A stretch of DNA of 64,000 bases from Clostridia bacterium (GTDB taxonomy: Bacteria > Bacillota > Clostridia > Oscillospirales > Acutalibacteraceae), in the NCBI GenBank assembly GCA_017437005.1, contig JAFSBZ010000035.1, positions 20,017 to 84,016 of the forward strand, given 5' to 3'. The position numbers were made by a program, and so were the translations under genes. Each line of letters starts with the position of its first letter. Within the stretch, counting starts at the first letter, position 1. Below are positions 40-18,343 of the stretch, in pieces. The notes below the pieces were generated by a model, which did no database searches, had not been told where the DNA came from, and saw nothing but the letters and a program-made list of their open reading frames with translations.

Positions 40-312
40 AAAAAAGCCCGAAGCAAAGTTACATAACTTCACTTCAGGGACGAAAATTTGTTTTTCGCGG
101 TACCACCCTGGTTGTTGCAAAAAAGCAACCGCTTTGTCAAAGCTCCAACAAGCCTTGTGTCTTGTAACGGGACAAACCGTAGCGACTTAATAACCGTAGT
201 GTTCAGCCACTCTGCTCAGGAATGAGGCTTTCTTTTAATGTTCTTATCGTCTTACACCAACCGACGACTCTCTGAAAAGAAGGGAAGAAAAGAAATAATT
301 CCTTCAAAGCAT
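40..312 (-). promoter_or_regulatory. T-box leader, specifier read as CUC (Leu)
   Basis: Minus-strand leader with the Stem I signature (AGAGAG, then GGTTGGTG with a TCGTC/GACGA stem, 240-275), the antiterminator T-box sequence GGGTGGTACCGCG (96-109 on the complement) and a long terminator hairpin followed by a T run (42-85). The Stem I 3' side reads CTC-ATTCCTGAGC, which aligns base for base with GGC-AUUCUUGAGC of the glyQS leader, so the specifier is probably CUC, leucine. The UGGU bulge fits an A73 discriminator, as tRNA-Leu has. A ribosome-binding site (AAAGGAG on the complement of 1-7) ends at the window edge, so the controlled gene, likely leuS or a leucine gene, starts just outside. The T-box call is secure; the amino acid is inference. 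Confidence 0.9.
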
Positions 313-331
313 TTAAAAAATATTTGCTCGT

Positions 332-7326: not shown

Positions 7327-7398
7327 GGGGACGGCACCCATAACAAAAAACGGTTTTACAAACTTAAGTATTTACATCAAAGGGGATGACACCCATCG
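7327..7398. repeat. Short near-duplicate pair before a small gene
   Basis: GGGGACGGCACCCAT (7327-7341) recurs as GGGGATGACACCCAT (7382-7396) with two differences. The 171-base gap between the LysR gene and the next gene shows nothing else. The second copy overlaps the presumed start region of the following gene. Confidence 0.4.
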
Positions 7399-8072
7399 AA
7401 AAAAACATTATTGTTGTAGATGAGCAAGGAAATGAATATGAGGCTACCTACCCTAAAAGGGCAAAGGGTCTTGTTAAAAATGGCAGGGCACGCTTCATAA
7501 CACAAAACAAAATATGTTTGCTGTGTCCGCCAGAAATTGAAATGGAGGACAATAAAATGTCAGAAAATAAAAAAGTTAATGAAAATGTAGAGGTTAATTC
7601 TCAAGCGGTTACAAGTGAAAGCAAAACACAAGTTGATGTTCTTGTTGACATGCTTAATCTCGGCAAAGATATGGCAAAATGTGAAGCAGACGAAAAAATG
7701 ACGATAGGATATGTTTTGGGTCAAATTGAAAAGATACAGTCTGATACACTATATTTGCAAGATTGTATTAAAAGTCTTGAAGGAATGAGACCGCCACATG
7801 TGCCTGATGTAGTTGATATTGCAGGAGAGCAAAAAGCAAAGGCGCTGGCGCAAGTCGTGACATGCCGAGAAACAACAAATCAACGTCTGATTGCGTTTTA
7901 TGAAAAGATATATGATGATTTGAAACAAATTAAGCCAGTTGACACAGAAAGAACGGCGGTTTTATCCACTCTTGTGCAAACGTTAGGTGAAGGTATGACG
8001 CCTAGTGAATGCAAGAATGCATTAACAGAAATTCTTGGAATCGCTTTACAAGATTTTTCTAAAAACATTTAA
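7386..8072 (+). CDS. Conserved-looking hypothetical protein with N-terminal 'YPKRAKGLVKNGRAR' module
   Basis: A 228-residue protein of unknown function. Residues 5-50 form a compact basic module (VVDEQGNEYEATYPKRAKGL, then KNGRARF and CLLCPP). Residues 53-85 are a polar linker and residues 85-228 are helical and acidic with no family I recognise. The module resembles, at pattern level only, the PLMP/RRXRR domain at the N-terminus of IscB-type proteins. The start is uncertain. The ATG at 7386 touches its AAAGGGG site, whereas a codon ATC at 7395 has ideal spacing and begins IEKN. A second excellent site (ATGGAGGAC) precedes the in-frame ATG at 7557, so a shorter 171-residue product may also be made. 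A terminator follows. Confidence 0.65.
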   Translation: MTPIEKNIIVVDEQGNEYEATYPKRAKGLVKNGRARFITQNKICLLCPPEIEMEDNKMSENKKVNENVEVNSQAVTSESKTQVDVLVDMLNLGKDMAKCEADEKMTIGYVLGQIEKIQSDTLYLQDCIKSLEGMRPPHVPDVVDIAGEQKAKALAQVVTCRETTNQRLIAFYEKIYDDLKQIKPVDTERTAVLSTLVQTLGEGMTPSECKNALTEILGIALQDFSKNI

Positions 8073-8692: not shown

Positions 8693-8731
8693 AAAAAAAT
8701 TGCAGCCGACTTTCGTCGACTGCTTAATTTT
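8693..8731 (-). terminator. Terminator of the ilvE / vor operon
   Basis: The stem GCAGCCGAC / GTCGACTGC has loop TTTC. On the minus strand it is followed by AATTTTTTT. Confidence 0.8.
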
Positions 8732-9793
8732 TTATAGTTTATAAGTCCAGTTAAACTCGTCTTCAATTTTTCCCCATTGAATACCGGTTAAGGTGTCGTA
8801 AAGCATTTGTGTTACTTCGCCGATTTCGCCGTTGTTTACAGCATATTTGGTATCTTTGTAGCAAAGCTCACCAATTGGAGAAATAACTGCTGCTGTGCCG
8901 CAACCCCAAGCTTCTTTGAGTGTGCCGTCTTCCATAGCTTTAGCAAGCTCGTCAATGCTAAGTAAACGCTCGCTTACCTTATAGCCCTTGCTGCGTAAAA
9001 CCTCGAGACAAGATTTACGTGTAATACCGGGTAGTATTGAGCCTGAAAGCATAGGCGTTACAATCTCGTCGCCGATTTTGAACATAACGTTCATAGCGCC
9101 AACTTCTTCGATATACTTTCTTTCAACACCATCAAGCCAAAGAACCTGTGAATAGCCCTTGCGCTCTGCGCGTTCGCCGGCGCGGTTACTTGCAGCGTAG
9201 TTACCGCCGCATTTAGCGTAACCTGTACCGCCGCGTACTGCACGAACGTCCTCGTCTTCAATCATAATCTTAACGGGGTTAATGCCCTCTTTATAATAGC
9301 TGCCAACGGGCGACGCAATTATAACGTAGGTTGCATTGTGTACCGCGTGAACACCCAAGGTTTCATCATTACCAAACATAAATGGACGAAGGTAAAGTGA
9401 AGTGCCGTCAGCCGATGGTGTCCAGTCTTGCTCGGTTTTTACAAATTCGGTAAGAACCTGTAAAGCCAAATCCTCAGGAATTTGAGGAAGGCAAAGTCTT
9501 TCGGCTGATGTGTTCATACGGCGGATGTTTTCCATAGGTCTAAAAAGCTGTACTGTGCCGTCTTTACGGCGGTAAGCCTTAAGACCTTCAAAAATTTCAG
9601 AGCCGTAGTGAAGTACGGTAGAAGCGGGGTGTAAAGCGATGGGTGCAAAAGGAACGATGCGTGCATCGTGCCAGCCCTCCTCGCGTGAATAGTCCATCAT
9701 AAACATATAGTCGGTAAAAATTTTACCGAAACCTAAGGTGGAACTGTCTGGTTTTTCTTTTAAAACGTCAGCTTTAACAAATTTAATATCCAT
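8732..9793 (-). CDS. ilvE: Branched-chain amino acid aminotransferase
   Basis: A 353-residue PLP-dependent fold-type IV aminotransferase (branched-chain type, close to the eukaryotic/Firmicute BCAT group). Signatures are LHYGSEIFEGLKAYRR near residue 60, the PLP-lysine region GGTGYAKCGGNYAASNRA near 190, EVGAMNVMF near 225 and GSILPGITRKS near 250. It interconverts Val, Leu and Ile with their 2-oxo acids using glutamate. AAGGAGG precedes the ATG. It is the last gene of the run that starts behind the Val-type T-box at 15.6 kb, directly after the 2-oxoacid:ferredoxin oxidoreductase, and so would aminate the 2-oxo acids that enzyme makes. Confidence 0.93.
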   Translation of the reverse strand: MDIKFVKADVLKEKPDSSTLGFGKIFTDYMFMMDYSREEGWHDARIVPFAPIALHPASTVLHYGSEIFEGLKAYRRKDGTVQLFRPMENIRRMNTSAERLCLPQIPEDLALQVLTEFVKTEQDWTPSADGTSLYLRPFMFGNDETLGVHAVHNATYVIIASPVGSYYKEGINPVKIMIEDEDVRAVRGGTGYAKCGGNYAASNRAGERAERKGYSQVLWLDGVERKYIEEVGAMNVMFKIGDEIVTPMLSGSILPGITRKSCLEVLRSKGYKVSERLLSIDELAKAMEDGTLKEAWGCGTAAVISPIGELCYKDTKYAVNNGEIGEVTQMLYDTLTGIQWGKIEDEFNWTYKL

Positions 9794-9811
9794 TTTTGTA
9801 TCCTCCTTAAA

Positions 9812-10342
9812 TCAGTTTTCAGAACCTAACTGCATAGCCTTTAGGTTAATATCAAGCATATCAGCTTTTTTTGGTGGAATAACCTTGCCGAGAACGATTT
9901 TGATTTCATCTTCGTTAAAGTCGTTCATTACTTTAAGTAATTTGCCAAGGATTATCATATTAGCAAGTGACTGTTTGCCCATTTCACTTGCGAGCGCAGT
10001 TGCCGGTATGTAGTAAACGTCAATGTCGGTGCGGGTTGACTTTGCCTCAATAAGACTTGAGTCAGCAATTATAATACCGCCCGCTTTAACAGTAGGCTCA
10101 AACTTTTCAAAAGATGGCAAGTTCATTGCAATAAGCACATCAGGCTGTGAAATGATAGGTGAGCCTACCTCTTCGTCGCTTATAATTACGCTGCAGCTTG
10201 CAGTACCGCCGCGCATTTCGGGGCCGTAGGATGGAAGCCAGCTAACATTTTTGTCAGCCAAGAGGCCCTTGTATGCCAAAAACTTACCTGTAAACAAAAT
10301 ACCCTGTCCGCCAAAGCCGGAAAGCAAAATTTGTGTAGTCAT
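9812..10342 (-). CDS. vorC: Branched-chain 2-oxoacid:ferredoxin oxidoreductase, gamma subunit
   Basis: A 176-residue subunit of the 2-oxoacid:acceptor oxidoreductase gamma family. It opens with LLSGFGGQGILFTGK and contains SYGPEMRGGTASCSVIIS and the CoA-contact-like QPDVLIAMN. The subunit forms the CoA-binding part of the multi-subunit enzyme. Its ATG overlaps the stop of the beta-subunit gene (TAATG), with AGGAGG inside that gene, showing translational coupling. Whether the complex prefers branched-chain, aromatic or 2-oxoglutarate substrates cannot be told from this subunit alone. The operon (ilvE, Val T-box) favours branched-chain acids. Confidence 0.85.
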   Translation of the reverse strand: MTTQILLSGFGGQGILFTGKFLAYKGLLADKNVSWLPSYGPEMRGGTASCSVIISDEEVGSPIISQPDVLIAMNLPSFEKFEPTVKAGGIIIADSSLIEAKSTRTDIDVYYIPATALASEMGKQSLANMIILGKLLKVMNDFNEDEIKIVLGKVIPPKKADMLDINLKAMQLGSEN

Positions 10343-11100
10343 TATTTTGTTTCCTCCTTTGCAGATCTGTCTTTATAAACACCAAGTGGGTAATATGGAA
10401 GCATATTTTCTTCGAGCCACTTGAGTGCGTTTTGCGGTGTCATACCCCAGTTGGTAGGGCAGGTTGACACAACCTCTACAAGAGAGAAGCCCTTGCCGTC
10501 AATCTGGTTTTGGAAGGCTTTTTTAATAGCCTTTTTAGCCTTAATAATATTTTTAACATTGCTAACGGTAACACGCTCTAAATATTCGGGACCCTCAAGC
10601 TCGGAAAGCATTTCGCAAACTCTGATCGGAAAACCGCAATGCTTGGTATCACGACCGTAGGGTGAGGTTTGGGTAACCTGACCGGGAAGTGAGGTAGGTG
10701 CCATCTGTCCGCCTGTCATACCGTAGATAGCATTGTTAATAAAGATAATTGTAATGTTTTCGTTTCTTGCTGCTGCGTGTACAGTTTCAGCCATACCGAT
10801 GGAAGCGAGGTCACCGTCACCCTGATATGTAAATACAATGTGGTTTTCGGGGTCGGAACGCTTAACACCTGTTGCAACTGCGGGAGCACGACCGTGAGCC
10901 GCCTCAATCATATCGCAGTTAAAGTAATTATATGCAAATACCGAGCAACCAACAGGTGCAATACCAATGGTTTTGCCCTCAATTCCTAATTCGTCAATAA
11001 CCTCTGCAACAAGACGATGCACTATACCGTGGGTGCAACCTGGGCAATAATGCATAGGAACGTCTGTAAGAGCATGTGGTTTGTCAAATACTACTGCCAT
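10342..11100 (-). CDS. vorA: Branched-chain 2-oxoacid:ferredoxin oxidoreductase, beta (thiamine-diphosphate) subunit
   Basis: A 252-residue thiamine-diphosphate-binding subunit. It shows HYCPGCTHGIVHRL near the N-terminus and the cofactor motif TYQGDGDLASIG...FINNAIYGMTGGQMAPTS (GDG to NN). The enzyme reversibly converts a 2-oxo acid plus CoA to acyl-CoA, CO2 and reduced ferredoxin; in anaerobes it can run as a reductive carboxylase. The start codon overlaps the stop of the alpha-subunit gene (TAATG) with GGAGGTG upstream. The length is normal for the VOR/KOR beta type. Confidence 0.88.
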   Translation of the reverse strand: MAVVFDKPHALTDVPMHYCPGCTHGIVHRLVAEVIDELGIEGKTIGIAPVGCSVFAYNYFNCDMIEAAHGRAPAVATGVKRSDPENHIVFTYQGDGDLASIGMAETVHAAARNENITIIFINNAIYGMTGGQMAPTSLPGQVTQTSPYGRDTKHCGFPIRVCEMLSELEGPEYLERVTVSNVKNIIKAKKAIKKAFQNQIDGKGFSLVEVVSTCPTNWGMTPQNALKWLEENMLPYYPLGVYKDRSAKEETK

Positions 11101-12161
11101 TATTTTGCACCTCCGTTTGCGCGTGTTATAGCTTCTAATACCTGTTCGGGTGAAGGAATCATACCGCCTGTACGGCTACAAAGTGTAACAGGCACTTTGC
11201 ATTCACACGCAAGGCGTACGTCTTCAATCATCTGACCCATAGAAAGCTCTACTGAAATTATTTCTTTAACCTGATTTGCGGCCTTTTTGAAAGGTGCTAC
11301 AGGGAAAGGCCAAAGTGTGATGGGGCGAATAAGACCAACCTTGATGCCTTGCTTTCTTGCTTCGTTGATTGCGTTTTTAGCAACGCGAGCGGCAATACCA
11401 AAAGCAGCAATGCAGATGTCGGCATCATCCATCATATATTCTTCATACATTACTTCGTTTTCTTCTACAACCTTGTAACGCTCGTAACGCTCTACAACAA
11501 GATCTTCAAGCTCGTCGGGTTTTAAGAAAAGGGAAGTGACAATGTTGTGTTCGCGTTCCATTTTGGTGCCTGTTGTAGCCCAAGGCTTATCAACGGTTTC
11601 CTTAACCTCGTAATCGAGAGAAACAGGCTCCATCATCTGACCCATTGTACCGTCAGCCAAAAGCATAGTAGGCATACGGTATTTGTCAGCAAGGTCAAAG
11701 CCCTTTACTGTAAGGTCAGCCATTTCCTGAACGGAAGAAGGTGCAAGTACTATCATCTTAAAGTCACCGTGACCGCCGCCCTTTGTAGCCTGGAAATAGT
11801 CGGCTTGACTTGGCTGAATACCGCCAAGACCCGGTCCGCCACGCTGTACGTTTACAATAAGAGCAGGAAGGTCAGAGCCCGCAAGGTAAGAAAGACCCTC
11901 GCTCTTAAGTGATATGCCTGGGGAAGATGACGATGTCATTACACGTTTGCCGGTAGAAGCTACGCCGTAAACCATATTTATAGCGGCAATTTCACTTTCT
12001 GCCTGCAAAAAGCATCCGCCGATTTTTGGCATTCTTTTAGCCATATAAGCTGCAACCTCGGTTTGAGGTGTTATAGGGTAGCCAAAGTAGTGCATACAGC
12101 CTGCCTTGATAGCGGCTTCGGCAATAGCCTCGTTACCCTTCATCAAAATTTTATCTGCCAT
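11100..12161 (-). CDS. vorB: Branched-chain 2-oxoacid:ferredoxin oxidoreductase, alpha subunit (VorB type)
   Basis: A 353-residue pyrimidine-binding alpha subunit. Diagnostic stretches are GNEAIAEAAIKAGCMHYFGY, PITPQTEVAAYMA, TSSSSPGISLKSEGLSYLAG, VQRGGPGLGGIQPSQADYFQ and ELSMGQMIEDVRLAC. This set matches proteins annotated as the 3-methyl-2-oxobutanoate dehydrogenase subunit VorB of Clostridia. 2-Oxoglutarate oxidoreductase (KorA) is the main alternative and differs little at this level. AAAGGTAAGTG lies before the ATG and the ferredoxin-subunit gene ends ten bases upstream. Confidence 0.88.
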   Translation of the reverse strand: MADKILMKGNEAIAEAAIKAGCMHYFGYPITPQTEVAAYMAKRMPKIGGCFLQAESEIAAINMVYGVASTGKRVMTSSSSPGISLKSEGLSYLAGSDLPALIVNVQRGGPGLGGIQPSQADYFQATKGGGHGDFKMIVLAPSSVQEMADLTVKGFDLADKYRMPTMLLADGTMGQMMEPVSLDYEVKETVDKPWATTGTKMEREHNIVTSLFLKPDELEDLVVERYERYKVVEENEVMYEEYMMDDADICIAAFGIAARVAKNAINEARKQGIKVGLIRPITLWPFPVAPFKKAANQVKEIISVELSMGQMIEDVRLACECKVPVTLCSRTGGMIPSPEQVLEAITRANGGAK

Positions 12162-12171
12162 TAGTGTTCAC

Positions 12172-12378
12172 TTACCTTTCTACCTTGATAATGCAGTCGG
12201 GGCACATCATAGCGCAAGCAGCACAACCAACGCAAGCTGATTCGTCGGTAATTTCTGCAGGGTGATAGCCCTTTTGGTTGATTTTGTCATTGGCAAGTTT
12301 AATAAGACCCTTGGGGCATGCGTCAACGCAAAGTCCGCAGCCTTTACACTTGTCGGTTTTAAAGGTTAATTTTGCCAT
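12172..12378 (-). CDS. vorD: Ferredoxin-type delta subunit (2x[4Fe-4S]) of the 2-oxoacid oxidoreductase
   Basis: A 68-residue protein with two complete cluster motifs, CKGCGLCVDACPKG and CVGCAACAMMCPD. This is the usual delta subunit that carries electrons between the thiamine centre and free ferredoxin. I place the start at the ATG at 12378, since AAGGAGA is eight bases upstream; the ATG at 12384 would leave only two bases. It is cotranscribed with the alpha, beta and gamma genes. Confidence 0.88.
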   Translation of the reverse strand: MAKLTFKTDKCKGCGLCVDACPKGLIKLANDKINQKGYHPAEITDESACVGCAACAMMCPDCIIKVER

Positions 12379-12392
12379 ATTCATTCTCCTTA

Positions 12393-13058
12393 TTAAACTG
12401 GCTTAGCTTGTAAAGTGAGAGGCAACAGGTTATCTATTTTGTCCTTGAGCCCGTCATAAAGCTCACGCTTTACGCTGGTCATAACAACAGGTAAACCTGA
12501 TGCTTGCGACACTTCATTTGCATAGCCTATGGATTTGATAATGTCTTCGGCGGTAGTTTCTTCGCCGATGTTTGAATTGTTTACAAGTCCCGTAAATTTA
12601 AGTCCGCACGCGGTTTCTATCTCGCGCATAACCTCGATTGTAGATTCTGCGTCGGGGGTAAGTGGGCGGTAGCCGTTAATAACCATTAGCATATCGAAGT
12701 TATTTTCGGCAGTTATTTCGGGAACAAGGCGGCCCAGCGCATAAGCGCCGCGGTCGTCACCGCCAACGTCGATTACAGCGGTAATGTCTTTATCGGCTGT
12801 AAGTCGGTACATATTAGCGGGGAGTGCCGGTATATCAACATTGGTGTTGGCATACTGGGAGCATATAAGCTCTATGCCGCGAGCCTTGAAATCATCTATA
12901 CTGTCTTTTGTACGAAAATACGGATTTACTATATCAAGGTCGGCTACAACCACGTTATTATACTGCTCTTTTAAGTAAAATGCAAGGTTTACGGCAACAT
13001 TTGTTTTGCCGCTGCCGTAATGCCCGCAAAGTAATGTTAATCGCTTGAATTTATTCAT
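12393..13058 (-). CDS. MinD/ParA-like P-loop ATPase of unknown role in the vor operon
   Basis: A 221-residue nucleotide-binding protein with a deviant-looking Walker A GHYGSGKTNVAVNLAF (residues 9-24), VVADLDIVNPYF as the switch region and AVIDVGGDDRGAYALGRL as Walker B. The fold is CobQ/MinD/ParA-like. No partner ParB or MinE is nearby. It sits between the acyl-CoA synthetase and the oxidoreductase subunits, 13 and about 14 bases from its neighbours, so it is cotranscribed. Related ATPases help load Fe-S clusters (NBP35/Mrp type), but this one lacks the CxxC pair of that group. A role in maturation or energisation of the oxidoreductase is only a guess. Confidence 0.75.
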   Translation of the reverse strand: MNKFKRLTLLCGHYGSGKTNVAVNLAFYLKEQYNNVVVADLDIVNPYFRTKDSIDDFKARGIELICSQYANTNVDIPALPANMYRLTADKDITAVIDVGGDDRGAYALGRLVPEITAENNFDMLMVINGYRPLTPDAESTIEVMREIETACGLKFTGLVNNSNIGEETTAEDIIKSIGYANEVSQASGLPVVMTSVKRELYDGLKDKIDNLLPLTLQAKPV

Positions 13059-13071
13059 TGTATATCACTGA

Positions 13072-15360
13072 TTATAATTTATTTCGTTGTATTTTGCCAC
13101 TAACAGTTTTTGGAAGACTGTCGCGGAATACAACAATACGAGGATATTTGTAAGGTGCCGTATGCTTTTTAACGTAATCTTGAATTTCCTTTTTAAGTTC
13201 TTCGGTGCCTTCCGTTCCATCAACAAGCACAATGCTTGCTTTTACAACTTGACCGCGAACTTCATCGGGTGCGGCAGATACACCGCATTCAAGAACGTAA
13301 GGTAGCTCCATAATAACGTTTTCAATTTCAAACGGTCCAATGCGGTAGCCCGAAGACTTGATAACGTCATCAACACGACCAACGTACCAATAGAAGCCGT
13401 CCTCATCACGCCAAGCGGTATCGCCTGTGTGGTAATAGCCGTCGTGCCAAACCTCGCGGGTTTTTTCTTCGTCACGGTAGTAACCCGTAAACAGACCGCA
13501 GGGCGCACCGTCAGCTACATTTACAACAATTTCGCCTGTTTCACCGTCAGGAACGTCGTTGCCGTCTGGGTCAACGATGTGTACGTCATAAATCGGGGCA
13601 GGTTTACCCATAGAACCGATTTTGTGAGAAGCACCAACCAAATTACCGATAATCATAGTGCTTTCGGTTTGACCGAATCCCTCAATTATCTGTAGTCCTG
13701 TTGCCTTTTCAAATTGACGGTAAACCTCGGGGTTAAGCGCCTCGCCCGCAGTAGTCATATGCTGAACAGAAGAAAAATCGTATTTTGAAATGTCTTGCTT
13801 AATCATCATACGAAGCATAGTAGGAGGTGCGCAGAAGGTTGTGATTTTGTATTTTGCAAACATTGGCAAAATATCTGCCGCATCAAAACGGTCGAAATCG
13901 TAAACAAAGGTTGCGGCTTCGCATAGCCATTGACCGTAAAGCTTGCCCCACATTGATTTTGCCCAACCCGTTTCGGATATGGTAAAGTGAAGTCCGTCGG
14001 GGTCAACGTTGTGCCAGTATTTTGCTGTATGGAAGTGACCGAGAGGGTACTTGTGATTGTGAGCGGCAATTTTTGGATAGCCCGTAGTACCTGATGTAAA
14101 AAACATAAGCAACAAATCGTCGCCGCAAGGGGACTCTTCGGTGCGCTCGAACTTTGAACTAAAGAGGGTGTATTCTTCGTCAAAGCTGCGCCATCCGTCA
14201 CGTGTGCCGTTTACAATAAGCTTGTGCTTAAGTGTGTCGGAACTTTGCGCTGCAATATCTACCTGCGCCGCAGTATCGCCGTCTGCAGTGCAGACAATAG
14301 CCGATATGCCTGCCGCTTTAAAGCGGTATTCAAAGTCGTGAACAAGCAATTGGTTTGGTGCGGGAATTGCAATTGCGCCAAGCTTGTTAAGCGCTAACAT
14401 ACAGAACCAAAACTGATAATGACGTTTAAGAACAAGCATTACGCGGTCGCCTTTTTTAATACCCATAGATTTAAAGTAGTTTGCAACCTGATTGGACGCC
14501 TTTTTCATATCCTTAAAGGTAAAGCGACGTTCGGTTTTGTCTTTTGATATATGTAGCATTGCAAGCTTGTTTGGTTCTTTTTCGGCCAAAGCATCAACCA
14601 AATCAAATGCAAAGTTAAATTTATCTACATTTTTAAATGTGATAGAGGTTGGTGTGCCGTTTTCATTTTCAACTGTATCAATGTAGTTGCGATAAATACG
14701 ATTTTTCTTATCGCGAACTGAAACGCGACGGTCTTCAATCTTTTTGGCAGTAGTAAGTTCGGGAATTTCTTCGCCTGTGGGATTAAGAACTATAGCATAG
14801 AACTTACAGTCTTTACCGTTTACAGCAATCATACCGTGTGGTGTGTCACTGTCAAAGTATATGCTATCTCCGGGTCCTAACACCTCGCGATGCTCGCCAA
14901 CCTGAACCATTAGGTTGCCCTCAATAACAAGGTCGCATTCTTGACCTGCGTGGGTGGTAAGCTCAATATCCTTTGCTTGCGCATTTTCGTCATAAACGCT
15001 ATGTACAAAAAGCGGCTCGGCAATTCGGTCACGGAAAGCGTACGCAAGGTTATAATAGGTCATACCGTGTGCCTGAGACACCTTTTGACCGCTACCTGCA
15101 CGGGTTACGGTATAGCTTGCAAGCTTAGGACTATAGCCCTCGATAATATCGGTAACATTTACGTTAAGTGCTAATGCACACCGATATATAAAAGCAAAGT
15201 TTAAGTCGCTTTTACCCGATTCACATTTTATATATTCTGCCTCGCTGACGTCGGTTTTGACGGCCATTTGTGCCGTGGTAAGACCTTCGAGCTCACGAAG
15301 ATCTTTAATACGGCTTGCCATCTCCTGAATTTTGTAATCAAGCGCGGTAATTTGTTCCAT
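13072..15360 (-). CDS. XRE-cupin-acyl-CoA synthetase fusion, valine T-box paralogue
   Basis: A 762-residue three-part protein. Residues 10-65 are an XRE helix-turn-helix (LREL, TTAQMAVKTDVSEAEYIKCE). Residues 110-190 are a cupin (HAGQECDLVIEGN, GPGDSIYFDSDTPHG). Residues 245-762 are an AMP-forming acyl-CoA synthetase with MFFTSGTTGYPKIAAH, GFGQTE, YHTGDTAWRDEDGF, GRVDDVIKSSGYRIGPFEIE and the C-terminal lysine motif KTVSGKIQRNKL, where the protein ends. The enzyme part is closest in pattern to medium-chain/short branched acyl-CoA synthetases (ACSM type). All catalytic motifs are intact. AGGAAGGAT precedes the ATG. It heads the Val T-box operon, so isobutyrate is my preferred substrate by inference; aryl acids are an alternative. 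Confidence 0.88.
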   Translation of the reverse strand: MEQITALDYKIQEMASRIKDLRELEGLTTAQMAVKTDVSEAEYIKCESGKSDLNFAFIYRCALALNVNVTDIIEGYSPKLASYTVTRAGSGQKVSQAHGMTYYNLAYAFRDRIAEPLFVHSVYDENAQAKDIELTTHAGQECDLVIEGNLMVQVGEHREVLGPGDSIYFDSDTPHGMIAVNGKDCKFYAIVLNPTGEEIPELTTAKKIEDRRVSVRDKKNRIYRNYIDTVENENGTPTSITFKNVDKFNFAFDLVDALAEKEPNKLAMLHISKDKTERRFTFKDMKKASNQVANYFKSMGIKKGDRVMLVLKRHYQFWFCMLALNKLGAIAIPAPNQLLVHDFEYRFKAAGISAIVCTADGDTAAQVDIAAQSSDTLKHKLIVNGTRDGWRSFDEEYTLFSSKFERTEESPCGDDLLLMFFTSGTTGYPKIAAHNHKYPLGHFHTAKYWHNVDPDGLHFTISETGWAKSMWGKLYGQWLCEAATFVYDFDRFDAADILPMFAKYKITTFCAPPTMLRMMIKQDISKYDFSSVQHMTTAGEALNPEVYRQFEKATGLQIIEGFGQTESTMIIGNLVGASHKIGSMGKPAPIYDVHIVDPDGNDVPDGETGEIVVNVADGAPCGLFTGYYRDEEKTREVWHDGYYHTGDTAWRDEDGFYWYVGRVDDVIKSSGYRIGPFEIENVIMELPYVLECGVSAAPDEVRGQVVKASIVLVDGTEGTEELKKEIQDYVKKHTAPYKYPRIVVFRDSLPKTVSGKIQRNKL

Positions 15361-15390
15361 AATTTACAAATCCTTCCTACTGGGGACTTA

Positions 15391-15655
15391 AAAAGCACTC
15401 GCCCCAAAGTTATGACTTTGAGACGAGTGCTGTTAATTCAGTCACCCGCGGTACCACTCAAATTGCAACCTTTCGGTTACCACTCTCGGAATCTGACAAT
15501 TCCTATGCTTTTACGCAGCAGTACGGGGAGATTCTACTTGTTAAAATAACTTTCTTTCTCCCGACTCGGAAGCTACAAACATATGCCTGCCCTTGATAAC
15601 TTGCACCAACCGTTATCTCTCTTGAAAGGACGAGTGGCAATGCCCTCTTCGTCAA
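15391..15655 (-). promoter_or_regulatory. T-box leader of the acs-vor-ilvE operon, specifier read as GUA (Val)
   Basis: The minus-strand leader has Stem I (AAGAGAG, GGTTGGTG within ATAAC/GTTAT), T-box GAGTGGTACCGCGGG (15445-15459 on the complement) and a terminator with a 15-bp stem and T run (15391-15432). The Stem I base is GACGAAG pairing with CTTCCGAGTC. The bases before that strand are GTA-G-CTTC, in the same position as ATC-A-CTTC in the leader at 18.2 kb and GGC-A in glyQS. The specifier is therefore probably GUA, valine. The UGGU bulge fits A73 of tRNA-Val. Confidence 0.92.
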
Positions 15656-15675
15656 AGTCTTTGAAAATTTATGAT

Positions 15676-15704
15676 AGTATATCACAACTTAAACGTTTTG
15701 TCAA
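15676..15704 (-). promoter_or_regulatory. SigmaA-type promoter of the Val T-box operon
   Basis: Minus strand: TTGACA (15699-15704), a 17-base spacer and TATACT (15676-15681). It lies between the stop of the upstream paralogue and the T-box, so the two units are transcribed separately. Confidence 0.85.
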
Positions 15705-15722
15705 TATTTTTAAATTGAAATA

Positions 15723-17990
15723 TTACAGTTTGTTACGCTGGATTTTTCCGCTTATTGTCTTGGGTAGTTCGTCACGGAATACTACAAGACGGGGGTATTT
15801 GTAAGGAGCGGTATGTGTTTTAACATACTGCTGAATTTCTTTTTTGAGTTCCTCACTCGGCTCAGTACCCTTGGTAAGCACGATACTTGCCTTTACTATC
15901 TGACCACGAACCTCATCGGGTGCTGCTGATACGCCACACTCAAGTACGTATGGAAGCTCCATAATAACGCTTTCGATCTCGAACGGTCCAATGCGGTAGC
16001 CCGATGACTTGATAACGTCATCAATACGGCTAACATACCAGAAATAACCGTCCTCATCGCGCCAAGCGGTATCGCCTGTGTGGTACATACCGTCGTGCCA
16101 AGCCTCGTTGGTTTTTTCGTCATCGAGATAATATTCTTTAAACAATCCACATGGAACGCCATCTTTTGTATGAACGACGATTTCGCCAACCTCACCGTCA
16201 GCAACGGGGTTGCCATCGGGGTCAACAATATCAACATCGTATTGCGGTGAAGCCTTACCCATAGCGCCAATCTTTGGCGTTGTGCCACGAAGATTAGCAA
16301 TTGTAAGTGTTGTCTCTGTCTGACCAAAGCCTTCCATAATTTGAAGACCTGTAGCCTTTTCAAATTGCTTAAACACTTCGGGGTTAAGCGCCTCACCTGC
16401 GGTTGTCATATGATGGATTGATGATAAATCATATTTTGACAAATCTTCCTTTATAAGCATACGAAGCATTGTAGGTGGCGCGCAGAATGTGGTAATACCG
16501 TAATTCGCAAACATTGGTAATATATCTGCCGCATCAAAGCGGTCAAAGTCGTATACAAATACTGCGCCTTCGCAAAGCCATTGTCCGTAAAGCTTACCCC
16601 AAAGCGATTTGCCCCAGCCAGTATCAGAGATAGTAAGGTGAAGCCCGTCGCGCTCACAGCAGTGCCAGTATTTTGCAGTTACAAAGTGCCCAAGAGCATA
16701 TGTGTGTGCGTGAGCTGCCATTTTAGGATTACCGGTAGTGCCCGAGGTAAAAAACATAAGAGCGGCTTCACTGCCTGCAGATGCATCTTCGAGACGGTCA
16801 AATTTACCTGAATAAAGCTTATATTCACTGTCAAAATCGTGCCAGCCTTCACGTGAGCCACCAACCATAATAAGCTGCTCAACGCAAGCACAGTTTTTAG
16901 CGGCTCTTTCGGCAATTTCGGCAGTATCGCCGTCAGCCGTACAAACAAGTGCCTTAACGCCTGCTGCTTTATAACGATATTCAAAGTCGTGGTCTTTAAG
17001 CTGATTTGTAGCAGGAATTGCCACGGCGCCCAGCTTGTGAAGAGCGGTCATACAGAACCAGAACTGGTAATGACGCTTAAGTACCAGCATTACCTTGTCA
17101 CCACGCTTGATTCCAAGTGAAGTAAAGTAGTTTGCTACTTGGTTTGATGCACGCTTGATATCTTTAAAGGTAAAGCGGCGCTCAACCTTGTTTTTGTCAA
17201 GATGAAGCATTGCAAGCTTTTCGGGGTATTTATCGGCAATACCGTCAACTATGTCAAAGCCAAAGTTAAAGCTTTCGGTATTTTTGAACTTAATATCCTG
17301 TAATGCGCCTGTTTCATCCTCAACCGTTTCAACAAACTTTTCGCAAACGAGCTGTTCGGTTTTTTTGGTGGAAACAATGCTCTTTCTTACAACGTCTTCC
17401 TGTGTATCTTCGCCGGGGAGCACCACCGCGCAAAATACGCAATCTTTACCGTCGATAGCAATCATACCGTGTGGGGTAGAGGAGTTGTAATAAATGCTAT
17501 CGCCCTCGTGTAAAATCTCGGTGTGTTCACCAATTTGCACTTTAAGCGAACCGCTTAAGATAAAGTCAAATTCTTGACCCGAGTGCTTGGTAAGATGAAT
17601 AGGTTTATTTTGCTGTGAAGCTGAATATTCATACCTTACAAAATAAGGTTCGGCAATTTTATCCTTGAATTTTGGTGCTAAGTTTGTAATGTCGATACCG
17701 TCTTCTTTAGCTGTTTTTTGACCACCGCCCTTACGGGTTACGGTATAGCTTGAAAGCTTAGCCGAATGACCTTCAAGTAGCTGAGTCATTTCTACATCAA
17801 AGGCTTGCGCGCATTTATGAATAAAAGTAAATGGAAAATCTACATTTGCGTTTTCGTATTCAATATATTGTTGCTCGCTTACTTCGGTTTTTGTGGCCAT
17901 CTCAGCAATAGACCAACCCATAATTTCGCGCATCTCCTTAATTCGTGCGGCAATCTCTTTTAATTGTTCTTTGGCTGTGTTGGTTTGCAT
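15723..17990 (-). CDS. XRE-cupin-acyl-CoA synthetase fusion, isoleucine T-box paralogue
   Basis: A 755-residue paralogue of the protein at 13072, collinear over its whole length. It has an XRE domain (IKEMREIMGWSIAEMA), a cupin (HSGQEFDFILSGSLKVQIG, HEGDSIYYNSSTPHG) and a synthetase (MFFTSGTTGNPKMAAH, GFGQTE, YHTGDTAWRDEDGYFWYV, SRIDDVIKSSGYRIGPFEIE, ending KTISGKIQRNKL). I use the ATG at 17990, nine to ten bases after AAAGGAGA; the in-frame TTG at 17999 would touch that site. It is alone in its transcription unit, behind its own promoter and a T-box whose specifier reads AUC (Ile), which points to 2-methylbutyrate as a likely substrate. Substrate is inference. Confidence 0.88.
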   Translation of the reverse strand: MQTNTAKEQLKEIAARIKEMREIMGWSIAEMATKTEVSEQQYIEYENANVDFPFTFIHKCAQAFDVEMTQLLEGHSAKLSSYTVTRKGGGQKTAKEDGIDITNLAPKFKDKIAEPYFVRYEYSASQQNKPIHLTKHSGQEFDFILSGSLKVQIGEHTEILHEGDSIYYNSSTPHGMIAIDGKDCVFCAVVLPGEDTQEDVVRKSIVSTKKTEQLVCEKFVETVEDETGALQDIKFKNTESFNFGFDIVDGIADKYPEKLAMLHLDKNKVERRFTFKDIKRASNQVANYFTSLGIKRGDKVMLVLKRHYQFWFCMTALHKLGAVAIPATNQLKDHDFEYRYKAAGVKALVCTADGDTAEIAERAAKNCACVEQLIMVGGSREGWHDFDSEYKLYSGKFDRLEDASAGSEAALMFFTSGTTGNPKMAAHAHTYALGHFVTAKYWHCCERDGLHLTISDTGWGKSLWGKLYGQWLCEGAVFVYDFDRFDAADILPMFANYGITTFCAPPTMLRMLIKEDLSKYDLSSIHHMTTAGEALNPEVFKQFEKATGLQIMEGFGQTETTLTIANLRGTTPKIGAMGKASPQYDVDIVDPDGNPVADGEVGEIVVHTKDGVPCGLFKEYYLDDEKTNEAWHDGMYHTGDTAWRDEDGYFWYVSRIDDVIKSSGYRIGPFEIESVIMELPYVLECGVSAAPDEVRGQIVKASIVLTKGTEPSEELKKEIQQYVKTHTAPYKYPRLVVFRDELPKTISGKIQRNKL

Positions 17991-18035
17991 AAAAATCAAT
18001 CTCCTTTTCTGCGTGCATTTAGCACAAAATTAAAA

Positions 18036-18298
18036 TAAAAAACACCCGTCTCAAAACTTTGAGACGGGTGATAATAAACACTCGCGGTACCACTCAAATT
18101 GCAACCCATTGGGTTACCACTCTCGGAATCTAACAATTCCTATGCCTTTACGCAGCAATCACGGAAGGTATCTACTAGGAATTTCCCGTTCGGGCCTTCA
18201 GCTCGGAAGTGATGGGCATTTTAAAATTCTTGTTGCTGTCTTGCACCAACCGACAGTTCTCTGAAAACGCAAATTTTAAGCCGTCTTCGTCATAGCTT
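18036..18298 (-). promoter_or_regulatory. T-box leader, specifier read as AUC (Ile)
   Basis: Stem I (CAGAGAA, GGTTGGTG within CTGTC/GACAG), T-box GAGTGGTACCGCGAG (18081-18095 on the complement), and a terminator CACCCGTCTCAAA / TTGAGACGGGTG followed by TTTTTT (18036-18072). The base of Stem I is GACGAAG with CTTC, preceded by ATC-A. By position this gives AUC, isoleucine. Confidence 0.92.
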
Positions 18299-18314
18299 TT
18301 TTTAATTTTTTCAC

Positions 18315-18343
18315 ATTTTAGCACAGTAAAGCACTGATGTCAA
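18315..18343 (-). promoter_or_regulatory. SigmaA-type promoter of the Ile T-box unit
   Basis: Minus strand: TTGACA (18338-18343), 17 bases, TAAAAT (18315-18320). Confidence 0.82.

Follow-up and report, generated by a model that had tools for sequence, protein, structure and literature searches.

The reductive carboxylation of branched short-chain acids to valine, isoleucine and leucine in rumen bacteria was reportedly established by Allison and co-workers and by Robinson and Allison. Isobutyrate, 2-methylbutyrate and isovalerate are named as the rumen precursors of valine, isoleucine and leucine, respectively, in a paper that cites Allison and co-workers (PMC7356843). Here we describe a locus in a 64,000-nucleotide (nt) stretch of DNA, called the window hereafter, from a Clostridia bacterium (GCA_017437005.1, contig JAFSBZ010000035.1, positions 20,017 to 84,016), in which T-box leaders precede two acyl-CoA synthetases (ACS1 and ACS2), a MinD-like ATPase, a four-subunit 2-oxoacid:ferredoxin oxidoreductase and the branched-chain aminotransferase IlvE. 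The locus itself is confirmed as real and far beyond chance, and its sequence features make it likely that it serves a biosynthetic salvage of branched-chain amino acids with three tRNA-sensed arms, by which 2-methylbutyrate, isobutyrate and probably isovalerate would be converted to isoleucine, valine and leucine.

The proposed acids and products are those of the rumen conversion, and gut anaerobes are concerned in both cases, whereas the present system brings in genes, T-box control, split synthetases and a proposed leucine arm in uncultured Clostridia. T-boxes turn genes on when their amino acid is scarce, and the leaders described here share Stem I, the specifier, the T-box core and the terminator with the T-box leaders known from amino acid genes, so a readout of uncharged tRNA would be expected of them as well. 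Neither acyl-CoA nor ferredoxin appears as a term in the main text of two T-box surveys (PMC2494555 and PMC3766115), and no description of T-box control over such a pathway was recognised among the titles and abstract starts of open-licence PMC papers, a scope that makes this a weak argument for absence. The chemistry is already known; the regulation and architecture are new to the extent that this could be checked.

The enzymes show a similar mixture of likeness and difference. Both synthetases resemble MacsMa of Methanosarcina acetivorans (structure 3etc) and MbcS over the whole catalytic part, share the Trp-to-Gly pocket of the Macs type and are expected to take branched short-chain substrates; unlike these enzymes, they carry a helix-turn-helix (HTH) and a cupin domain fused in front, form two paralogues with consistent residue differences and miss the MbcS cut-off. 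The oxidoreductase has four subunits, as does the 2-oxoisovalerate:ferredoxin oxidoreductase VorDBAC, and its VorB lies above the subfamily cut-off, whereas a MinD-like gene in front (62/62 loci), a proposed biosynthetic use and scores of the other subunits below the model cut-offs set it apart. A homologue of the 2-isopropylmalate synthase LeuA in the third arm has the HMGL and LeuA_dimer domains and a leucine T-box in common with LeuA, but is devoid of the catalytic motifs and is followed by a TIM-barrel–acyl-CoA synthetase fusion.

The system thereby offers candidate genes in uncultured gut Clostridia for the long-held rumen conversion of branched volatile acids to amino acids. Its paired T-boxes and a Gly/Ala residue that separates the two synthetases could serve as markers to predict species that depend on their neighbours' branched acids, and cross-feeding on isobutyrate, 2-methylbutyrate and isovalerate becomes testable by gene. 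It also presents a regulatory logic that would be read from tRNA charging, and a LeuA case seemingly without catalysis but with an allosteric domain.

Organization of the locus

The whole system runs from 18343 to 8702 (window positions, as throughout) on the minus strand, with an isoleucine T-box and ACS1 followed by a valine T-box and ACS2–MinD–vorDBAC–ilvE and closed by a terminator; the head of the third arm lies near the window's start. The features are as follows.

18315–18343, minus strand: promoter of the ACS1 unit, TTGACA-17-TAAAAT (pattern scan; loose pattern in relatives' leaders)
18057–18302, minus strand: T-box leader 1, specifier AUC (Ile), terminator at 18070–18043 (RF00230, 94.9 bits)
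15723–17990, minus strand: ACS1, HTH-cupin-AMP-binding acyl-CoA synthetase, 755 amino acids, proposed 2-methylbutyrate–CoA ligase (Pfam, NCBIfam, 3etc match, Gly in GWGK)
15676–15704, minus strand: promoter of the ACS2-vor-ilvE unit, TTGACA-17-TATACT (pattern scan; loose pattern in relatives' leaders)
15416–15664, minus strand: T-box leader 2, specifier GUA (Val), terminator at 15431–15394 (RF00230, 85.6 bits, E 1.9e-18)
13072–15360, minus strand: ACS2, HTH-cupin-AMP-binding acyl-CoA synthetase, 762 amino acids, proposed isobutyrate–CoA ligase (Pfam, NCBIfam, 3etc match, pocket residues)
12393–13058, minus strand: MinD/ParA-like P-loop ATPase, 221 amino acids (Pfam CbiA, 30.6 bits, cut-off 25.4)
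12172–12384, minus strand: VorD-like ferredoxin subunit with two 4Fe-4S motifs, 70 amino acids (Pfam, NCBIfam)
11100–12161, minus strand: VorB, 2-oxoacid:ferredoxin oxidoreductase subunit (NF005507, 549.5 bits, cut-off 399)
10342–11100, minus strand: VorA-like beta subunit, thiamine pyrophosphate-binding (Pfam, NCBIfam)
9812–10342, minus strand: VorC-like gamma subunit (Pfam, NCBIfam)
8732–9793, minus strand: ilvE, branched-chain amino acid aminotransferase (TIGR01123, 408.8 bits, cut-off 250.05)
8702–8723, minus strand: intrinsic terminator of the operon (terminator scan)
73–316, minus strand: T-box leader 3, specifier CUC (Leu), head of the third arm (RF00230, 131.9 bits)

ACS1 starts at an ATG behind AAGGAG, and a 754-amino-acid version that omits the initial Met was used for the analyses. 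Between ACS2 and ilvE, no intergenic gap exceeded 18 nt, and two 1-nt overlaps were present. The scan yielded 39 promoter-like sites, a small excess over the shuffled rate (mean 29.6, standard deviation 6.3), and 26 terminator-like sites, above the shuffled rate (mean 15.0, standard deviation 4.0). A loose promoter pattern was found in 51 of the 52 ACS1 leaders and 71 of the 78 ACS2 leaders examined in relatives, counts that have no shuffle control. Since each leader has a promoter of its own, the operon probably consists of two transcription units, ACS1 alone and ACS2–MinD–vorDBAC–ilvE. An initial annotation of this DNA had described a promoter, T-box, synthetase, MinD-like ATPase, four-subunit oxidoreductase and ilvE on one strand, ended by a terminator, with a paralogous synthetase behind its own T-box; all of these parts were found where it had placed them, ACS1 behind T-box 1 and ACS2 behind T-box 2, and the second promoter refines this description.

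T-box specifiers for isoleucine, valine and leucine

Leaders 1 and 3 exceeded the gathering score of the Rfam T-box model RF00230 (93 bits), and both leaders that had initially been read as T-boxes matched the model, leader 1 at 94.9 bits and leader 2 at 85.6 bits, the latter under the gathering score. The T-box core GUGGUACCGCG with UGGN and a terminator hairpin were present in both, and their 3' parts, including the terminator, gave folding z values of -3.1 (leader 1) and -4.4 (leader 2). An Rfam T-box was likewise detected for 12 of the 12 synthetase leaders in nine short related loci, at 78.5–99 bits. In the covariance-model alignments, in which the specifier position is our own reading, AUC stood before a GAAG/CUUC helix in leader 1 and GUA stood before the same helix in leader 2.

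The specifiers were then compared with those of relatives, namely the best 80 among 589 stretches coding for an ACS2 relative in a scan of named genome contigs, using a helix-matching script; the counts include the window's own leaders. Of the 55 ACS1 leaders found, 54 could be scored, and AUC was read in all 54. Of the 79 ACS2 leaders found, 71 could be scored, and 70 of these had GUA; in the remaining one, L066, the same letters occur with the register slipped by one base. Other T-box-like sites numbered 35, chance matches included, and 23 of the 24 scored had CUC, with a register slip as the exception. The script failed or scored below 5 for one of 55 ACS1 leaders, eight of 79 ACS2 leaders and 11 of 35 other sites. 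Among the eight unscored ACS2 leaders, GTA was seen by eye in L018, L074 and L076 and below the score limit in L039 and L042, L023 had GUC by eye, likewise a valine codon, and the specifier could not be read in L053 and L060. The specifiers that the initial annotation had given, GUA for valine and AUC for isoleucine, are thus borne out by both the model alignments and the relatives. In the host assembly, which is 85% complete, 35 tRNAs were found. UAC is the only tRNA-Val anticodon among them, in keeping with GUA, and a tRNA-Leu(GAG) that would match CUC occurs as well; tRNA-Ile(GAU) was not found.

The host genome has eight T-boxes. Those outside the system carry UGG (Trp) before trpB (L090, 5831–6071), AAC (Asn) before asnS (L091, 7607–7852), probably UUC (Phe) before pheS (L092, 2380–2633) and AUC (Ile) before ileS (L093, 6206–6442); one more, at L090 18375–18598, reads ACC (Thr) by model alignment.

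Two paralogous acyl-CoA synthetases

HTH, Cupin_2, AMP-binding and AMP-binding_C domains were identified by Pfam in both ACS1 and ACS2, the best NCBIfam model for both was MbcS (NF047394; 439.1 and 446.2 bits), and the nearest solved structure for both was MacsMa 3etc, aligned over the whole catalytic part. MacsMa prefers 2-methylbutyrate, adenylates C3–C8 acids and belongs to a kind in which Gly replaces the Trp of acetyl-CoA synthetase (PMC10455477). MbcS activates isobutyrate and 2-methylbutyrate and acts poorly on isovalerate (PMC10026030), which fits the need for a third synthetase for leucine.

A comparison of 54 ACS1 with 80 ACS2 sequences revealed 15 positions that were more than 90% uniform within each group yet different between the groups, five of them without exception. 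One of these five, in GW(G/A)K, was Gly in 54/54 ACS1 and Ala in 80/80 ACS2 sequences, and is Gly in MacsMa 3etc; we take this position to correspond to Val310 of Salmonella acetyl-CoA synthetase, which lies in the acetate pocket of that enzyme, and the residue is thus likely part of the acyl pocket. A roomier Gly would fit a five-carbon acid and Ala a four-carbon acid, in agreement with the isoleucine-linked ACS1 and the valine-linked ACS2, and the paralogue-specific residues as a whole would be compatible with one acid per synthetase. The Gly of EGFGQ(T/S)E, which presumably occupies the column of the acetyl-CoA synthetase Trp, was present in 54/54 ACS1 and 80/80 ACS2 sequences. In the regions upstream of 52 ACS1 and 78 ACS2 leaders, the most-shared dyads were A/T runs only; a putative role of the HTH-cupin part as an autoregulator is neither supported nor excluded.

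We considered whether the acids could be aryl or straight-chain ones, with the specifiers merely sensing general starvation. The substrates are deduced rather than observed, the synthetase families are broad, and the C3–C8 range given for MacsMa (PMC10455477) would accommodate such acids. However, the three synthetase-linked T-boxes are those for Ile, Val and Leu, the aromatic-codon T-boxes among the host's eight precede trpB and pheS and not this pathway, VorB and IlvE score above their cut-offs, and the pocket Gly is of the Macs type, making this explanation very unlikely.

Ordinary branched-chain genes in the host and its family

The initial annotation had proposed looking for ordinary ilv genes elsewhere in the host. 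Neither ketol-acid reductoisomerase (KARI, ilvC) nor dihydroxy-acid dehydratase (DHAD, ilvD) turned up in the host genome, which is 85% complete, and both were detected in 14 of 14 control genomes. No LeuB and no separate LeuC were found in the host either: it has one aconitase and one Iso_dh protein, both encoded on contig C44 less than 5 kb from an HMGL gene, a cluster that we read as the citrate-to-oxoglutarate branch. As regards an assembly gap as the cause of the missing genes, KARI was found neither in two same-genus genomes listed as 99% complete nor in 26 of the 29 two-synthetase genomes other than the host.

The latter figure comes from a family sample of 150 genomes, 149 of them with a completeness of 90% or more and a contamination of 5% or less; 90 of the 150 contained KARI. 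With the host left out, KARI was present in 3/29 two-synthetase genomes and 87/120 others (Fisher p 7.5e-10, kinship ignored); when genomes were grouped by an ACS2 identity of at least 68%, the counts were 3/27 and 87/122 (p 7.5e-9, kinship ignored). KARI occurred in 13/23 genomes with one full-length match, 13/17 whose single match covers just the catalytic part and 61/80 with none, indicating that KARI depletion belongs to the paired synthetases and not to any such synthetase. Three of the 30 two-synthetase genomes (host included) had a LeuB above the cut-off, and these are exactly the three with KARI. KARI was present in three of the 50 genomes from which 50 of the 80 related loci come, including that of the close relative L010.

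These counts also bear on the idea of a catabolic operon, in which transamination and Vor oxidation would yield acyl-CoA and the synthetases would work in reverse or have some other function. Both IlvE and enzymes of the Vor type can act in either direction, and oxidoreductases of this kind take part in the amino acid fermentation of other anaerobes; yet T-boxes switch on under scarcity, AMP-forming synthetases conserve no ATP, and genomes with both synthetases are usually without KARI. We give this idea hardly any credence.

Conservation of the locus

A comparison of gene order in relatives had also been suggested initially, and the complete order ACS1-ACS2-MinD-VorD-VorB-VorA-VorC-IlvE was kept in 42 of the 80 loci; ACS2 lacked an oxidoreductase within the fetched stretch in 16, and the other 22 were variants or had parts missing, some being cut by contig ends. 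The records of these relatives are uncultured or metagenome-assembled, mostly labelled Clostridia, Clostridiales, Oscillospiraceae, Ruminococcaceae or Ruminococcus, and 47 of the 80 name the ruminant gut. The arrangement varies: in L071 and L077, ACS1 is followed by ACS2 and a T-box core (Ile) was found only before ACS1, so that one isoleucine leader may control both synthetases. Lone ACS2 genes keep the valine T-box (for example, in L027, L028, L035 and L045).

The 16 loci with no oxidoreductase in the fetched stretch would suit synthetases whose chief products are branched acyl-CoA primers for branched-chain fatty acids, with amino acids secondary, and MbcS, their best NCBIfam match, feeds fatty acid synthesis in Staphylococcus aureus (PMC10026030). 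Against such a role stand the Ile and Val T-boxes, the latter retained even by the lone ACS2 genes, the tight linkage to Vor and IlvE, and the host genome, in which no KARI, DHAD or LeuB was found; we regard it as unlikely.

One lone ACS2 with a valine T-box (L080, 9917–16011) lies just upstream of a 1042-amino-acid frame resembling isoleucyl-tRNA synthetase. In Bacteroides and Parabacteroides, the cupin and AMP-binding parts are two adjacent genes near proline genes (L100, 8007–10229; L101, 8010–10227). With separate genes and no annotated Vor genes in the two stretches, these relatives give no support to the pathway.

Oxidoreductase, MinD-like ATPase and IlvE

The oxidoreductase subunits, encoded in the order D-B-A-C, contain the Pfam domains POR_N/PFOR_II, TPP_enzyme_C, POR and Fer4, and both VorB and IlvE lie above the curated cut-offs of their models (549.5 versus 399 bits and 408.8 versus 250.05 bits). 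The MinD-like gene was directly upstream of VorD in all 62 loci having VorD. Its product has the P-loop GHYGSGKTN and the conserved stretches DLDIVNPYFR and NNSN, and the 95% consensus of 63 MinD-like sequences contained no Cys. A CxxC motif is a trait of Fe-S carriers of the Mrp/Nbp35 type; matches to these were weak, and with no conserved Cys a carrier of the CxxC type is not supported. Our guess is that the MinD-like ATPase may be an assembly or activation factor of the oxidoreductase.

A third arm behind a leucine T-box

Behind leader 3, the third arm extends beyond the start of the window (contig C34, below 20089). The leucine T-box is followed by genes for a 458-amino-acid LeuA homologue, for an 835-amino-acid fusion protein in which an acyl-CoA synthetase is joined to a xylose-isomerase-like TIM barrel, and for an amidohydrolase (L089, 7307–12008). 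A synthetase match of about 25% identity lies behind a T-box within the fetched stretch of many related loci. The initial annotation had recognised two synthetases; its isoleucine and valine arms stand, and its scope is widened by this leucine arm with a synthetase of its own, which it had missed.

The LeuA homologue has HMGL and LeuA_dimer domains, and its closest families are 2-isopropylmalate synthases, with no equivalog cut-off reached. The HxH metal site and RD, which we take to be the LeuA catalytic motifs, were gone from the homologue, which was aligned to solved LeuA, and from 35 of the 35 relatives with the site covered. Across 36 homologues, mean identity was 48% in the HMGL domain and 72% in LeuA_dimer, and the reading frame remains intact in relatives, as does its linkage to the synthetase gene. 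The homologue may therefore be a leucine-sensing or leucine-binding partner of the synthetase, and the fusion probably gives isovaleryl-CoA; the TIM barrel and the amidohydrolase would have parts in the arm as well. Its closeness to the 2-isopropylmalate synthase families could alternatively mark the arm as a remnant of ordinary leucine synthesis, in which the homologue makes isopropylmalate and the adjoining synthetase is unrelated. The motif loss, the unreached equivalog cut-offs, the host genome, where no separate leuB or leuC was found, and the open, synthetase-linked state of the gene make such a remnant highly improbable.

Proposed pathway and its regulation

In the salvage pathway that we propose, ACS1 would turn 2-methylbutyrate, and ACS2 isobutyrate, into CoA esters with conversion of ATP to AMP, the Vor-type enzyme would carry out ferredoxin-linked reductive carboxylation of the CoA ester to the 2-oxoacid, and IlvE would aminate the latter to isoleucine or valine. 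By antitermination, uncharged tRNA-Ile would permit transcription into ACS1, and uncharged tRNA-Val would permit it into ACS2–MinD–vorDBAC–ilvE. The third arm, under the leucine T-box, would feed isovaleryl-CoA to the same oxidoreductase and aminotransferase, and the LeuA homologue may sense leucine through its retained, allosteric LeuA_dimer domain. Because transcripts from the isoleucine promoter must cross the valine leader, the shared enzymes would be set by valine supply, and we infer that isoleucine starvation alone should raise ACS1 and not the oxidoreductase or aminotransferase. The amino-acid-sensing salvage system with a shared oxidoreductase and aminotransferase that the initial annotation had proposed is supported by the specifiers, the ordinary genes not found, the KARI anticorrelation and the kinship to 3etc and MbcS.

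A more far-reaching version is possible but doubtful: a full replacement of ilvBCD and leuABCD, with one synthetase per acid under its cognate T-box, each with a sensor (HTH-cupin or dead LeuA), control through both RNA and enzymes, and the MinD-like protein as a Vor maturation factor.

Several observations weigh against the salvage reading. Regarding the RNA, leader 2 falls below the gathering score of 93 bits (85.6 bits, E 1.9e-18), only 2 of the 12 relatives' leaders exceed that score and 10 lie below it, and tRNA-Ile(GAU) was not detected among the host's 35 tRNAs (assembly 85% complete). As for the enzymes, ACS1 and ACS2 miss the MbcS equivalog cut-off of 850 bits, and the beta, gamma and delta subunits match in their domains with all listed NCBIfam models below cut-off. 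The residue differences between ACS1 and ACS2 are shared by descent and may represent few events, their substrates and the direction of flux are deduced from sequence, and the putative use of isovalerate by the third synthetase is deduced from the leucine T-box and the genes not found. To these can be added the 16 loci in which ACS2 lacked an oxidoreductase within the fetched stretch.

The genome survey contributes further points of this kind. Genomes with a single full-length synthetase are less KARI-depleted, which weakens the anticorrelation, and the two-match genomes include doubtful pairs, such as G164, in which the second match is 47% identical and has three stops. LeuB is an imperfect marker, its cut-off being reached in just 9 of 14 control genomes. 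The DHAD family was detected in 5 of 30 two-synthetase genomes, three with KARI and two without; the two proteins from genomes without KARI score lower and may be sugar-acid dehydratases. Finally, KARI in 3/29 two-synthetase and 3/50 locus genomes indicates that the route is not always a replacement.

Neighbouring genes

Within the window, proB and proA adjoin ACS1. Beside the operon, a 228-amino-acid protein is encoded at 7386–8072 on the plus strand; it had no Pfam or NCBIfam match, and a homologue with 65% identity is found on the same side in the relative L010.

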